Source: Sphingomonas sp. CCH9-E2
GTDB taxonomy: Bacteria > Pseudomonadota > Alphaproteobacteria > Sphingomonadales > Sphingomonadaceae
DNA: 35,606 nucleotides
Assembly: GCF_001557215.1 (NCBI RefSeq)
Contig: NZ_LSJM01000223.1
Coordinates: forward strand, 1-35,606
Direction of reading: 5' to 3'
Positions 12,466-16,302 of the stretch are shown here, piece after piece; position 1 is the first letter of the stretch; the number at the start of each line of letters is the position of its first letter. The notes under the pieces were generated by a model, which ran no database searches, was not told the DNA's origin, and worked only from the letters and a program-made list of their open reading frames with translations. The translations under genes and the position numbers were made by a program.

Positions 12466-13872
12466 TCACCCGTGACGTTCGCCGGCATACAGCGCCGCGC
12501 CCATCGCGCGAATCGCCGCCACTTTGGCGTGAAACGGCCCCCAATCGTCGTCACGGTCGATCGCGGCCCAGATTTCCTCGACTTCGTCGATCAGCATCGC
12601 ACAGGGAGCGCCCGCGAAATAGGGATGGTCCTGCCCGCCCGGAACCGGCGCATAGGGCTTCAGTGCCGCGCGCACCGCATCCCACTGCCCGCCATAGCGC
12701 TCGGGCAGGGTGCCGCCAAAGCCATCGAAGAAGAACCGGTCGATCGACTCCCCGGTCGCCATCAGCGCCCGCTCGACCGCGTCCTTGAGCGTCCAGCCCA
12801 GCTCGGTCGCGTCCGCTCCGTCCGGCGCAACGATCCCCAGCCGCCGCTGCAACAACGGGGCATAGGCGGCGCGAAACTGCGCCTCGAACCGCTCCAGCTG
12901 CGCGATCAATGGCGGCGCCTCGCTGAGGATCCGCAGCGATACCGCCAGCTGCGCGACATCCCACAGGATCGCGTCGGGCTGGCGGCCAAAGGCATACAGC
13001 CCCGCATGGTCGAAATAGGCGGCGGTAAAGCCCGGATCGAATGTCGCCGCGAACCGCCACGGCCCGTAATCGAAGCTCTCGCCCGTCACATTGATATTGT
13101 CGGTGTTCAGCACCCCATGCACGAACCCGGCGACCATATAGCTCGCCGCCAGCCGCGCGGTGCGATCGACCGCAAGCCCCAGCAGCTGCGCGACCGGATC
13201 CGCGTCCGCCGCCACGCCGAACAATTCGGCCAGGCACCAGTCGACCAGCCGCCGCATAGTCTCGGCATCGCCATGATAGGCGAGCCGCTGGAACGTCCCG
13301 ATGCGGATCTGCCCATGGCTCATCCGCACCAGCACGGCGGAGCGAGTGGGGGAGGGCTCGTCATTGCGCTCCAGCGCCTCGCCCGTTTCGATCAGCGAGA
13401 AGCTGCGCGAGGTGTTCACCCCCAGCGCCTGCAGCATCTCGGTCGCCAGCACCTCGCGCACGCCGCCCTTCAGCGTCAGCCGCCCGTCGCCGAACCGGCT
13501 CCACGGCGTCTGGCCCGAACCCTTGGTACCCAGCTCCATCAGCGCGCCGTCCGCCGCGCGCCGCATCTGGGCAAAGGTGAACCCGCGCCCGTCGCCCAGC
13601 TCGGGATTGTACACCCGGAACTGGTGGCCATGATACCGCATCGCCAGCGGCCGGGGTAAATTGCCCGACAACGGTGCGAACCGCCCGAAATGGTTCAGCC
13701 ACTGATCGTCGGACAGCGCGTCCAGCCCCACCTCCGCCGCCGCACGATCGTTGCGGAAGCGCAGGATGGTCTGCGGAAAGTTTGCCGCTTCCACCGGATC
13801 GTAGAATGAATCGCCCAGCTTCAGCACGGCAGGATCGGGGGTGTATTCGGGCGCTTGCGGGAAATCTGCCAT
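12466..13872 (-). CDS. selO: SelO/YdiU family protein adenylyltransferase
   Basis: The protein has 468 residues from ATG 13872. SelO is a pseudokinase-fold enzyme that transfers AMP to Ser, Thr and Tyr residues of proteins, in bacteria linked to redox stress. Conserved blocks are MRYHGHQFRVYNPELGDGRG, ELGTKGSGQTPWSRFGDGRL with the ATP-binding Lys, GVREVLATEMLQALGV, and the metal-binding motif HGVLNTDNINV followed by DYGPW. The length is close to the family norm. A longer frame to 13962 runs into the divergent hydrolase gene and is unlikely. Its start codon lies 18 bp from the start of that gene. Confidence 0.94.
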   Translation of the reverse strand: MADFPQAPEYTPDPAVLKLGDSFYDPVEAANFPQTILRFRNDRAAAEVGLDALSDDQWLNHFGRFAPLSGNLPRPLAMRYHGHQFRVYNPELGDGRGFTFAQMRRAADGALMELGTKGSGQTPWSRFGDGRLTLKGGVREVLATEMLQALGVNTSRSFSLIETGEALERNDEPSPTRSAVLVRMSHGQIRIGTFQRLAYHGDAETMRRLVDWCLAELFGVAADADPVAQLLGLAVDRTARLAASYMVAGFVHGVLNTDNINVTGESFDYGPWRFAATFDPGFTAAYFDHAGLYAFGRQPDAILWDVAQLAVSLRILSEAPPLIAQLERFEAQFRAAYAPLLQRRLGIVAPDGADATELGWTLKDAVERALMATGESIDRFFFDGFGGTLPERYGGQWDAVRAALKPYAPVPGGQDHPYFAGAPCAMLIDEVEEIWAAIDRDDDWGPFHAKVAAIRAMGAALYAGERHG

Positions 13873-13890
13873 GCGGCGATATGGGGGGCG

Positions 13891-14766
13891 ATGGCGACCG
13901 CGCGCAACCTGCCCAAATATTCCGATGGCTATTGGTGGTCCGGCGACGGACTGCGGCTGCATTATCGCGACTATCCCGGCCGCGCCGACCGCCCGCCCTT
14001 GGTCTGCATCCCCGGCTTGACCCGCAACGCGCGCGATTATGAAAAGCTGGCCGAGCGGCTGGCGGGCGAATGGCGCGTGATCGCGGTCGAACTGCGCGGG
14101 CGCGGCGAGAGCGGCTATGCCAAGGATCCGATGAGCTATGTCCCGCTCACCTATCTTCAGGATCTGGAGGCGCTCGTCGCACAGCTGAAACTCGACCGGT
14201 TCGTCGCGGTCGGCACCTCACTGGGCGGAATCCTGACCATGCTGATGGCCTCGACTCACCCCGAGCGGATCGCGGGCGCGGTGCTCAACGATGTCGGGCC
14301 GGAGATCGATCCGGCGGGCCTCGGGCGCATCCGCGGCTATGTCGGCAAGCCGAGCTGGCACCCGACCTGGATGCATGCCGCCCGCGCGGTGGCGGAGGCG
14401 AATGCGCATGTGTACCCCAATTGGGGCATCACCGAGTGGCTCGACATGGCCAAGCGCACGCACCGCCTGACCAGCGCGGGCCGGATCGTGCTCGACTATG
14501 ACATGAAGATCGCCGAACCCTTCCGCGTCCCCGGCAACGAAGCCGGCCCCGACATGTGGCGCGCGTTTGAGGGATTGAAGGACAAACCCTTGCTGATCGT
14601 CCGCGGCGGCACCTCCGACATCCTCCCCGCCGCCGTGGCGGATCGCATGCACGCCCAGGTCGCAGGCAGCGAATTGGTGACCATCCCCGACACCGGCCAC
14701 ACCCCAACCCTGACCGAACCCGATGCGGAAGCCGCAATCGACCGGTTGCTGGCGCGGGTGACTTAA
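13891..14766 (+). CDS. Alpha/beta-hydrolase fold enzyme
   Basis: The protein has 291 residues from ATG 13891, with GGGGGGCG directly before it. An oxyanion-hole region CIPGLTRNARDYEKLAERL, the ELRGRGESG turn, and the nucleophile elbow VAVGTSLGGIL with Ser110 are clear. An acidic residue in RGGTSDIL and His270 in PDTGHTPTL complete the triad. The family includes esterases, haloalkane dehalogenases, epoxide hydrolases and C-C hydrolases, and the substrate cannot be read from the sequence. No signal peptide is present, so it is cytoplasmic. An upstream ATG at 13855 would overlap selO and is less likely. Two perfect hairpins follow the stop. Confidence 0.9.
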   Translation: MATARNLPKYSDGYWWSGDGLRLHYRDYPGRADRPPLVCIPGLTRNARDYEKLAERLAGEWRVIAVELRGRGESGYAKDPMSYVPLTYLQDLEALVAQLKLDRFVAVGTSLGGILTMLMASTHPERIAGAVLNDVGPEIDPAGLGRIRGYVGKPSWHPTWMHAARAVAEANAHVYPNWGITEWLDMAKRTHRLTSAGRIVLDYDMKIAEPFRVPGNEAGPDMWRAFEGLKDKPLLIVRGGTSDILPAAVADRMHAQVAGSELVTIPDTGHTPTLTEPDAEAAIDRLLARVT

Positions 14767-14834
14767 AATCCTCCCCCGCCAGGGGGAGGATTAAGCAGAC
14801 CCTCACCCAACCCTCTCCCGCTAGCGGGAGAGGG
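14767..14834. repeat. Two perfect hairpins after the hydrolase gene
   Basis: Hairpin 1 directly follows the stop codon: AATCCTCCCCC at 14767-14777, a GCCA loop, and GGGGGAGGATT at 14782-14792, an 11-bp perfect stem. Hairpin 2 is a 24-bp perfect palindrome at 14811-14834 (CCCTCTCCCGCT and its complement). No T run follows either. They may end the hydrolase transcript with Rho or stabilise it. Between 14835 and 14938 I see nothing recognisable. Confidence 0.75.
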
Positions 14835-14938
14835 CTAAGAAGGCAGCCAAATCCCTTCCAATGTTGGATTTATTCTGATCTACCCTTGGGGTGAGCAGCA
14901 TCCTACTCCCCCTCCCGCAAATCACCCCGCCTGACACG

Positions 14939-15092
14939 GTCGCGCGCCCGTCGCTTGGCAGTCGCGCAGGTGTCGCGTTCCGGGCCTGCCACTGTTGTCA
15001 TCTTGTCGCGCGCGCGTCGCGCAACCGTCGCCCACCTGTCGCGCCCCAGTCCAAAACCCGTCGCGTCGCAGTCCCGTCGCAGTCGCGTCACC
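14939..15092. repeat. Degenerate 11-bp tandem array with GTCGC core
   Basis: Fourteen consecutive 11-bp units run from 14939 to 15092. The core GTCGC is exact at 14939, 14950, 14961, 14972, 15005, 15016, 15027, 15038, 15060 and 15082. The units at 14983, 14994, 15049 and 15071 keep the register but have altered cores (GGCCT, GTTGT, GTCCA, GTCCC). Two further GTCGC copies occur at offset 5, at 15065 and 15076. The six bases after the core are variable but often begin GC. The array ends 79 bp before the glycosyltransferase start. Period 11 is not a codon multiple, so I do not read it as coding. Confidence 0.85.
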
Positions 15093-15171
15093 CCAAAACC
15101 CCCGCATTTACGTCAGCTTCGTCGGACACCCCGGTTGACACCGCCCGGGAAATCAGGACTGCAAAGCGCCG

Positions 15172-16302
15172 ATGATGCTCAACATCCTGCACCTCCACTC
15201 CAGCTTCGACCTGGGCGGCAAGGAAGCCCGCGCCGTCCGCCTGATGAACGCATTCGGCGACCGGGCGAAGCATGTCATCGTCTCCGGGGTCGAGGGGGCC
15301 TATGGTGCCCGCGACGCGATTGCGAAGGGTATTCGCTACGAGATCGCGCAGAACCCGCCGCCGCTGACCGGCAAGCCCTCAGTGGCTCGCTATGAGGCGA
15401 TTGCCAAGTTCATGGCGCGCTTCGATCTCGTCCTCACCTACAATTGGGGCGCGATCGATGGGGTGATGGCGCGGCGGGTGTTCGGCAAGAACATGCCCCC
15501 GGTGATCCACCACGAAGACGGCTTCAACTCGGACGAGGCGCTCCGCCTCAACCGCGTCCGCAACATGTATCGCCGCATCGCGCTCACCGCGGCGCATGGC
15601 CTGGTCGTCCCGTCGCACCAGCTGGAGAGCATAGCCTACCATATCTGGAAGCAGCCCAAGGCGCGCCTCCACCGCATCTCGAACGGCATCGACGTCGCCG
15701 CCTATGGCCGCAAGCCCGATCCCAAGGCGATCCCCGGCTTCAAGCGCCTGCCCGGTCATGTCGTGGTCGGCACGCTCGCCGGGCTGCGGCCGGTCAAGGA
15801 TATCCCGATGCTGGTCCGCGCGGTCGGCGGCATGAAGACCAAGGCGCAGCTGGTGATCGTCGGCGAAGGCCCGGACCGCGAAGCGATCGAGGATACGATC
15901 GCCAACATGGGCATGGAAAAACAGGTGCTGCTCGCCGGCTTCCTGCCCGATCCGCACAAGTACATGGGCCTGTTCGACATCTTCGCGCTGTCGTCGAAGA
16001 GCGAGCAACAGCCGATCGCGGTGATGGAGGCGATGGCGGCGGGCCTTCCGATCGCATCGACCCCGGTCGGCGACGTCGCCAAGATGGTCCACCCCGACAA
16101 TGTCTCGACGATCAGCAAGGACTGGAACCCCGTCCATCTGCGCGACCGGATCGAGGTGCTCGCCGCCCATCCCGATGCGCGGCGGACGGTGGGCAAGGCG
16201 AACCAGCTGCGCGCCCGTGCGTTGTTCGACGAACAGGCGATGATCGCGTCCTATGCAAAGCTCTATTCAGAAGCGGTAGGTCGCCCCGGCGCGCTGGGGT
16301 GA
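15172..16302 (+). CDS. Family 4 (GT-B) glycosyltransferase
   Basis: The protein has 376 residues. The N-terminal half begins NILHLHSSFDLGGKEARAVRLM, typical of retaining GT-B enzymes. The C-terminal donor domain has VGTLAGLRPVKDIPMLVRAV, LVIVGEGPDREAIE, LLAGFLPDP and the E-x7-E motif in SEQQPIAVMEAMAAGLPI. It probably transfers a sugar from a nucleotide donor to a surface polysaccharide or lipid; acceptor and sugar are unknown. No other polysaccharide gene is adjacent. Adjacent ATG codons at 15172 and 15175 make the start uncertain by one residue. The upstream region carries the 11-bp array, which could influence its expression. Confidence 0.9.
   Translation: MMLNILHLHSSFDLGGKEARAVRLMNAFGDRAKHVIVSGVEGAYGARDAIAKGIRYEIAQNPPPLTGKPSVARYEAIAKFMARFDLVLTYNWGAIDGVMARRVFGKNMPPVIHHEDGFNSDEALRLNRVRNMYRRIALTAAHGLVVPSHQLESIAYHIWKQPKARLHRISNGIDVAAYGRKPDPKAIPGFKRLPGHVVVGTLAGLRPVKDIPMLVRAVGGMKTKAQLVIVGEGPDREAIEDTIANMGMEKQVLLAGFLPDPHKYMGLFDIFALSSKSEQQPIAVMEAMAAGLPIASTPVGDVAKMVHPDNVSTISKDWNPVHLRDRIEVLAAHPDARRTVGKANQLRARALFDEQAMIASYAKLYSEAVGRPGALG

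Follow-up and report, generated by a model that had tools for sequence, protein, structure and literature searches.

In the genome of Sphingomonas sp. CCH9-E2, a row of evenly spaced GTCGC pentamers lies between an alpha/beta hydrolase gene (positions 13855 to 14766, forward strand) and a glycosyltransferase gene with family 1/4 domains (15172 to 16302, forward strand), raising the questions of whether so regular an array is real, whether it belongs to the gene downstream, and what might read it. The window, i.e., the whole stretch of DNA that was analyzed, comprises 35,606 nucleotides of contig NZ_LSJM01000223.1. The array occupies positions 14939 to 15092 of the forward strand and consists of fourteen 11-bp units, ten of which begin with an exact GTCGC (at 14939, 14950, 14961, 14972, 15005, 15016, 15027, 15038, 15060, and 15082) and four with GGCCT, GTTGT, GTCCA, and GTCCC; two further GTCGC pentamers, at 15065 and 15076, are out of register. 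The 5-mer most often found in register between positions 14861 and 15170 occurs 10 times at period 11 and 2 to 3 times at periods 8 to 10 and 12 to 15. The in-register maximum was 3 in 1000 dinucleotide shuffles of the array region, against the 10 observed, and 4 in 20 shuffles of the whole window. A three-unit pattern allowing one mismatch gave six matches in the window versus at most two in 100 shuffles. The array noted in the preliminary description is therefore real, and shuffled sequence of the same composition does not produce comparable periodic arrays.

That description had also supposed that the core is kept while the rest of the unit drifts, and this was borne out in five sets of orthologous arrays from loci other than that of the window. 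The register was assigned manually, one poor pair was omitted, and the ThrDH set is visibly partly out of register; on this basis, 135 of 1350 core sites differ (10.0%), compared with 436 of 1620 spacer sites (26.9%). GTCGC is the least-differing of the 11 circular 5-bp windows in this comparison. Across 905 units, each core position is 88 to 99% one base, a figure that is biased because the units were found by their cores. A simple tandem repeat was rejected, since the units are not alike over their whole length, the core being conserved and the spacer variable.

A scan of genome contigs for the glycosyltransferase gene found 15 loci. Only L001, L002, and L005 (94, 94, and 97% identity) have the array upstream, with differing unit numbers and conserved flanks (G and L numbers denote genomes and loci). 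The array is absent at the other 12 of the 15 loci, including L003 and L015 (80–82% protein identity; L003, 82%), and is thus not needed for the glycosyltransferase gene. A tie to this gene is not supported: copies of the array elsewhere adjoin unrelated housekeeping genes, and control of the glycosyltransferase gene by the array is unsupported. In the window, REP-like inverted repeats (CCTCCCCCGCCAGGGGGAGG and CTCTCCCGCTAGCGGGAGAG) lie between the hydrolase gene and the element, at 14770 to 14840, and similar repeats are present at other loci. The gap between hydrolase and element contains a small DUF559-type-like endonuclease gene (identified by eye) in L001 (2876–3241) and L002 (3242–3604), which is absent from the window. 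Locus L009 (RPSH01000008.1), titled Bacillus sp. 2B10, has the Sphingomonas glycosyltransferase locus and is likely mislabeled or contaminated.

The boundaries given earlier (14939 to 15092) hold for the array but not for the whole element, which spans about 14853 to 15127, all on the forward strand. It starts with a 5′ module, CCCTTCCAATGTTGGATTTATTCTGATCTACCCTTGGGGTG (14853 to 14895), whose promoter-like role is inferred and which contains the palindrome TCCAATGTTGGA at 14857 to 14868. This module is nearly identical upstream of the same gene in L001, L002, and L005, and modules of the same kind precede arrays, S genes, and L genes (see below) elsewhere. A spacer (14896 to 14938) ending in CGCCTGACACG leads to the array, and CCTGACAC ahead of the first unit recurs in many copies. 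The array is followed by a link, CCAAAACCCCCGCATTTAC (15093 to 15111), similar to the sequence joining array and 3′ motif in many copies, and by the 3′ motif itself, GTCAGCTTCGTCGGAC (15112 to 15127), a 9-bp direct repeat belonging to a genome-specific motif family and the proposed site of the protein L.

The window array is one copy of a dispersed intergenic Sphingomonas element. Among 13 whole genomes, three-unit matches numbered 21 in G001, 14 in G002, 26 in G005, and 52 in G013, with none or one in each of the other nine; the reversed pattern gave one match each in two genomes. G005 is the environmental strain Sphingomonas sp. R647, and G013 is S. tagetis MG17. Of 201 Sphingomonas genomes sampled, 19 have strict four-unit arrays, compared with a single match to the reversed pattern, in one genome; among the 19, G062 is counted through a simple repeat, its true array adjoining its S gene. 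A family-wide sample yielded strict arrays in 2 of 249 genomes, G013 and G145, both Sphingomonas and both already in the genus sample. Comparison of the surroundings of 32 and then a further 47 arrays gave the usual layout of an element of about 270 bp: a 5′ module (CTTCCAATGTTGGATTT...TCTGATCTA or CTTTCCTACANNCCCC...), a variable array, the link, and the direct repeat. The 3′ motif is missing from some array copies, such as the ispDF copies L053, L211, and L229, and copies with the 5′ module and motif but no array occur in L254, L256, and once in L272. A long 5′ module that contains a hairpin and GCTCTTTGA, which we take to be boxA-like, is common to about 20 copies in G099 (L206–L210, L259, L261–L272). 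The element had no match in plasmid and phage collections. A pattern scan of IMG/VR gave at least 120 stretches, and most of those that chain five or more units are simple repeats; one putative viral contig, L124 (IMGVR_UViG_3300036444_000001), carries what looks like a genuine array near the contig end. We found no account of the element among the open-access articles searched.

Neighbors of the array, named by eye, include thiD, ispDF, hppA, uvrB, cspA, valS, and ileS. Among 37 copies, in which orthologous loci are counted more than once and L075 and L076 are omitted, 26 have a right-hand gene that reads away from the array and 11 have one that reads towards it. The idea that arrays precede certain genes or a class of genes is not supported, the neighbors being unrelated and 11 of 37 facing the array. 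That arrays are always intergenic holds for 84 of 86 chained arrays, which lie outside genes called by codon score, so that a coding repeat was rejected; it does not hold for L075 and L076, three-unit matches within genes, which we attributed to chance and also excluded when motifs were compared.

Two families of helix-turn-helix (HTH) proteins, read in Sphingomonas genomes other than that of the window, accompany the element. The gene of the shorter protein, S, has about 100 codons and sits between the 5′ module and the array, with the array and then the 3′ motif following it. Of 24 such loci, 23 were parsed (L288 of G099 was left out), and the 5′ module was seen by eye ahead of the S start codon in 22 of the 23 printed, the exception being G186. 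In 19 of the 23 parsed loci, the in-register GNCGC cores after S beat all but at most 5 of 500 shuffles; G189, G056, G202, and G187 fell short of that line. At E ≤ 1e-20, S occurs in 24 of 201 genomes, namely 17 of the 19 with strict arrays and 7 of the 182 others (Fisher p = 2.7e-17, uncorrected for relatedness). Each of those seven has a non-strict array beside S that none of 500 shuffles equaled. G142 has an S match at only 6.6e-8, and G067 has an array with neither S nor L found.

The best profile match of S is PHROG 4044, terminase small subunit (6e-6, 6.8e-6, and 2.8e-5 for three members); against Pfam, both S and L matched HTH families only, below the cut-off. A search of 5.8 billion proteins found 289 relatives of S at E 1e-5, and existing names for the protein include LysR or AraC-like protein. 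The structure of S predicted from 70 sequences had a mean pLDDT of 76.8. Among the first 10 viral fold matches of this model, four are named terminase small subunit (probability 1.00) and six have uninformative names, with a best E of 0.035; against the PDB, nothing was found at E 0.001.

The longer protein, L, is encoded by a second gene similar to that of the terminase small subunit TerS (PHROG 4044 at 1.8e-5) and carries its own genome's 3′ motif inside its coding sequence. It was found in 20 of 24 tested genomes and in 76 of the 201 genus genomes, but not in G202. Of the 19 array-bearing genomes 17 have it, as do 59 of the other 182. TCCTACA of the 5′ module precedes the L start in 16 of 18 printed genomes, the exceptions being G039 and G062. 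Of 33 L genes fetched, 31 remained after those of G187 and G048, which could not be parsed, were dropped. The variable linker of L that precedes PVWW contains a direct repeat resembling the genome's own motif, and a perfect 6-mer repeat at lag 9 occurs in 12 of 19 linkers, compared with a mean of 1.9 and a maximum of 6 in 200 shuffles. When element motifs were matched to L linkers across 18 genomes, the observed score was 235.3 against a permuted mean of 214.2 (sd 2.7), and none of 20000 permutations was as high, although the test is not free of kinship because close relatives share both sides. The genome's own linker ranked first or tied in 10 of the 18, with G016, whose linker missed its motif in this test, counted as a poor match. 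In G111, 24 bp are common to the element and L. Some relatives of L (P0171, P0173, and others) have a DUF3597 domain (PF12200).

The 3′ motif itself changes from genome to genome, with some variation among copies: GTCAACTTCGTCAAC in G013, GTCAAYTTAGTCAAC in G099, GTCAGCTTCGTCGGA in G005, G028, and G039, GTCCGCTTCGTCCGG in G001 and G002, nTGAACTTCGCGAAC in G056, CTCCACTTTCTCCAC in G111 and G202, and CTAAACTTCCTCAAC in G145. The change is visible even at a single locus: at thiD, where the 5′ modules are alike, the motif is GTCAGCATCGTCCGG in G001, CATGAACTTTGCCACC in G056, and GTCAAAACTGTCAAC in G189. The pattern TCAAYTTMSTCAAC matched 16 sites in G013, 26 in G099, two in G007, and none in G145, G003, and G012.

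The L system extends beyond the arrays, as judged from genomes in which the motif was predicted from L. G086, G112, and G117 have a TTCAA-type repeat in L but no strict arrays. The motif derived from L, TCAAGNGATTCAAGATTT (at most two mismatches), matched 10, 12, and 9 sites in these genomes, three of the G112 matches having two mismatches and possibly being chance; it matched once each in G132 and G173, nowhere in 11 other genomes, and nowhere when reversed. One match per genome is L itself, which leaves 28 further sites in the three genomes. When 28 sites were re-read, 14 had a 5′ module of the strict pattern within 300 bp, six lay in called genes (three of these being L), and none had more than two GTCGC upstream. 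The pattern TTTCCTACANNCCC matched 8 sites in G005, 8 in G013, 10 in G039, 10 in G189, 4 in G056, 1 in G099, 3 each in G007 and G008, 1 in G012, and 0 in G003, with 0 to 1 when reversed. At the 30 loci fetched, it lies ahead of L, further TerS-like genes, or solo elements, and in two cases within a gene.

If these proteins read these sites, residues of their recognition helices should track the bases of the sites. For L, with half-site bases assigned by eye from the linkers, the first base of the first half-site is G in 23 of 23 genomes in which the helix residue is R, K, or T; of the eight genomes with P, E, A, V, or Q, only G056 has G, and the other seven have C or T. In a tree from which the helix was left out, the residue class changes seven times, at least five of the changes being forced. 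G018 goes against the rule, its L gene having C and its element at the S locus G. The second half-site also departs from expectation in G132, G117, G196, and G104. In S, 11 loci have A or G right after SSAH, with T at core base 2 in 56 to 100% of units, and 12 loci have R there, with T in 10 to 58% of units (Mann-Whitney p = 4.6e-5, uncorrected for relatedness). On an EgtB tree the A/G class of S changes four times, at least two of them forced, and the R class at least once. Direct contacts would produce such covariation, which is nonetheless a correlation only; the divergence of the species seems to have been accompanied by matching changes in sites and proteins. S is an unlikely reader of the 3′ motif, because its SRSSAH segment is nearly constant (exceptions G187, G109, and G145) while the motif varies. 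For the array, the earlier suggestion of a row of sites for one protein is well supported by the kept core, the co-occurrence with S (17 of 19 versus 7 of 182 genomes), and the helix covariation, S being the probable reader.

The best reading, by analogy with phage terS and its pac site, is that of a tandem operator of S together with a site of L. We consider it probable, at about 0.6, that the elements of about 270 bp are chromosomal sites of a TerS-like DNA-binding pair, S and L. The computed part of this argument comprises the dispersal, the shared modules, the linkage of genes and sites, the genome-wide change of the motif, and the covariation of motif and helix. From these we infer binding, the multimer, the promoter, a roadblock effect, and any benefit to the cell. 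S, of about 100 amino acids, would form a multimer on the GTCGC cores, placing an HTH at every helical turn along the same face of the DNA, and L would occupy the direct repeat that makes up the 3′ motif. The two genes would each travel with their own site, as phage terS does with pac, and copies such as that in the window, in which the fourteen-unit array is a proposed tandem operator of S, would be solo elements without an S gene. The likeliest direct effect would be that transcription from the 5′ module is blocked or marked, because the sites lie downstream of that module in one orientation. Weighing against this reading are the departures in G067, G202, and G142, the array copies that lack the 3′ motif, viral fold matches no better than E 0.035, the exceptions to the helix rule, and the motif in EgtB (see below).

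Rows of 11-bp direct repeats are known from other systems. In the parC site of plasmid R1, a multimer of ParR, a ribbon-helix-helix protein with an actin-like partner, binds a row of roughly ten 11-bp direct repeats. The element shares the row of 11-bp repeats and the proposed multimer binding but differs in its HTH proteins and its many chromosomal copies. The dispersed, modular BOX elements of Streptococcus pneumoniae, whose middle units vary in number according to passages in PMC3049150, resemble the Sphingomonas element in all three respects; here, however, there are 11-bp units with a conserved core, a genome-specific 3′ motif, and a tie to two HTH gene families. The comparison suggests an alternative that we regard as unlikely, although the best placed of those considered: the element would be a BOX- or MITE-like mobile repeat, non-autonomous and itself functionless, with S and L as passengers or remains of a parent element and the arrays simply inherited. 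Its modular layout, variable middle units, dispersal, and patchy presence (19 of 201 genus genomes) would fit, as would the position of 11 of the 37 arrays opposite a gene's 3′ end, a placement reported for BOX in passages of PMC3049150. Recent amplification, suggested by the more than 20 copies in G099 that are nearly identical, also fits. Against such a repeat stand a core differing by 10% against 27% for the spacer between orthologous arrays, a 3′ motif that depends on the genome even at thiD, and S and L helices that covary with the sites; in addition, the two ends of the element, compared by eye, do not resemble inverted repeats. No alignable empty site was found; thiD in G013 and G003 lacks the element, and the flanks there are too diverged.

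The element also resembles phage packaging systems, since here too a site putatively lies beside (S) or inside (L) the gene of an HTH protein. The pac site of SPP1 contains direct repeats and extends over promoters and the start of the small terminase gene (passages in PMC4737164), and in P22-like phages, pac lies inside gene 3 (passages in PMC8022706). The system described here differs in being chromosomal and in having a long 11-bp array, a genome-dependent site, and, where these were counted, 16 (G013) and 26 (G099) motif sites per genome; the stretches examined around S and L revealed no obvious packaging genes. According to passages in PMC4737164, the isolated HTH domain of SF6 TerS binds pac DNA without sequence preference, which counts against the reading of the elements as sites of S and L. 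A second alternative, that arrays and motifs are pac-like signals through which a phage or gene transfer agent packages chromosomal DNA, and which spread by favoring their own transfer, appears improbable. The TerS-like proteins with sites beside or inside their genes, as in SPP1 (PMC4737164) and P22-like phages (PMC8022706), and the spacing of about one turn speak for it. Against it, the elements are mostly at stable orthologous loci, and the short stretches around S and L, read by eye, contain no noticed packaging genes. GTA_TIM was absent from all 24 genomes, one of 14 control genomes, Caulobacter, being positive, which weakens an RcGTA-type agent in particular. Apart from the phage-like layout nothing supports a role in packaging, and control of transcription is likelier, judging from sites that follow a promoter-like 5′ module.

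Response regulators of the OmpR/PhoB type also have operators of 11-bp direct repeats, and in the Pho box and other OmpR-family operators these stand at about one per helical turn, a few units before the genes of one regulon. An operator of such an unrelated regulator would suit the 11-bp direct repeats and the short, conserved core; nevertheless, up to 16 units beside unrelated genes with no regulon, strict arrays that track S, and a core that tracks the S helix make it very improbable. Least probable is an element acting as RNA, in which a small transcript from the 5′ module would bind a protein or RNA through its GUCGC repeats and 3′ motif, an idea drawn from the promoter-like module, the single orientation throughout an element, and the hairpins and boxA-like GCTCTTTGA of some copies, since the eight Rfam matches up to E 5 all lie far below gathering scores and the helix–base covariation of HTH proteins points to DNA.

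Returning to the reading of the elements as sites of S and L, a more far-reaching form of it is tentative and in our estimate unlikely to hold in full. It sees a self-referring recognition system derived from terminase, in which the L gene holds its own site, the sites, 9 to 26 per genome where counted, follow changes in the helix, S and arrays are added in some lineages, and the dispersed sites act as signals for chromosome marking or packaging. Were it true, a code could be read from genomes alone (first base G with R, K, or T, C with E, V, A, or P, and T with Q). Should the reading of the elements as sites of S and L be right, a single step would reveal a chromosomal site family and two HTH protein families that have received little study, together with the way they evolved jointly. 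A change of specificity followed by many chromosomal sites would be directly testable with the 31 natural protein–site pairs read here, and bacteria would be seen to keep recognition parts of phage packaging machines for some chromosomal task.

One feature lies outside the model of terminase-like sites. G013 and G099 each have two motif sites inside coding sequence, one in L and the other in EgtB (L257, position 2391, in G013; L260, position 2522, in G099). The EgtB linker before FAFDCE.PRH contains the genome-type motif in frame in G013, G099, G189, G119, and G187, i.e., in 5 of 18 readable genomes, all of the GTCAA type; it is absent from the other 13, and the linker was unreadable in G003, G186, G153, and G056. 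Further TerS-like HTH genes stand right behind a TTTCCTACA module in G005 (L398, L402), G039 (L380, L394), and G007 (L385, L392), and those behind TTTCCTACA form a larger family with shared leaders. In G008, which has no strict arrays, L377 and L391 contain elements of the form TTTCCTACA - GCTCTTTGA - GTGAACTTCGTGAACTTTGG.
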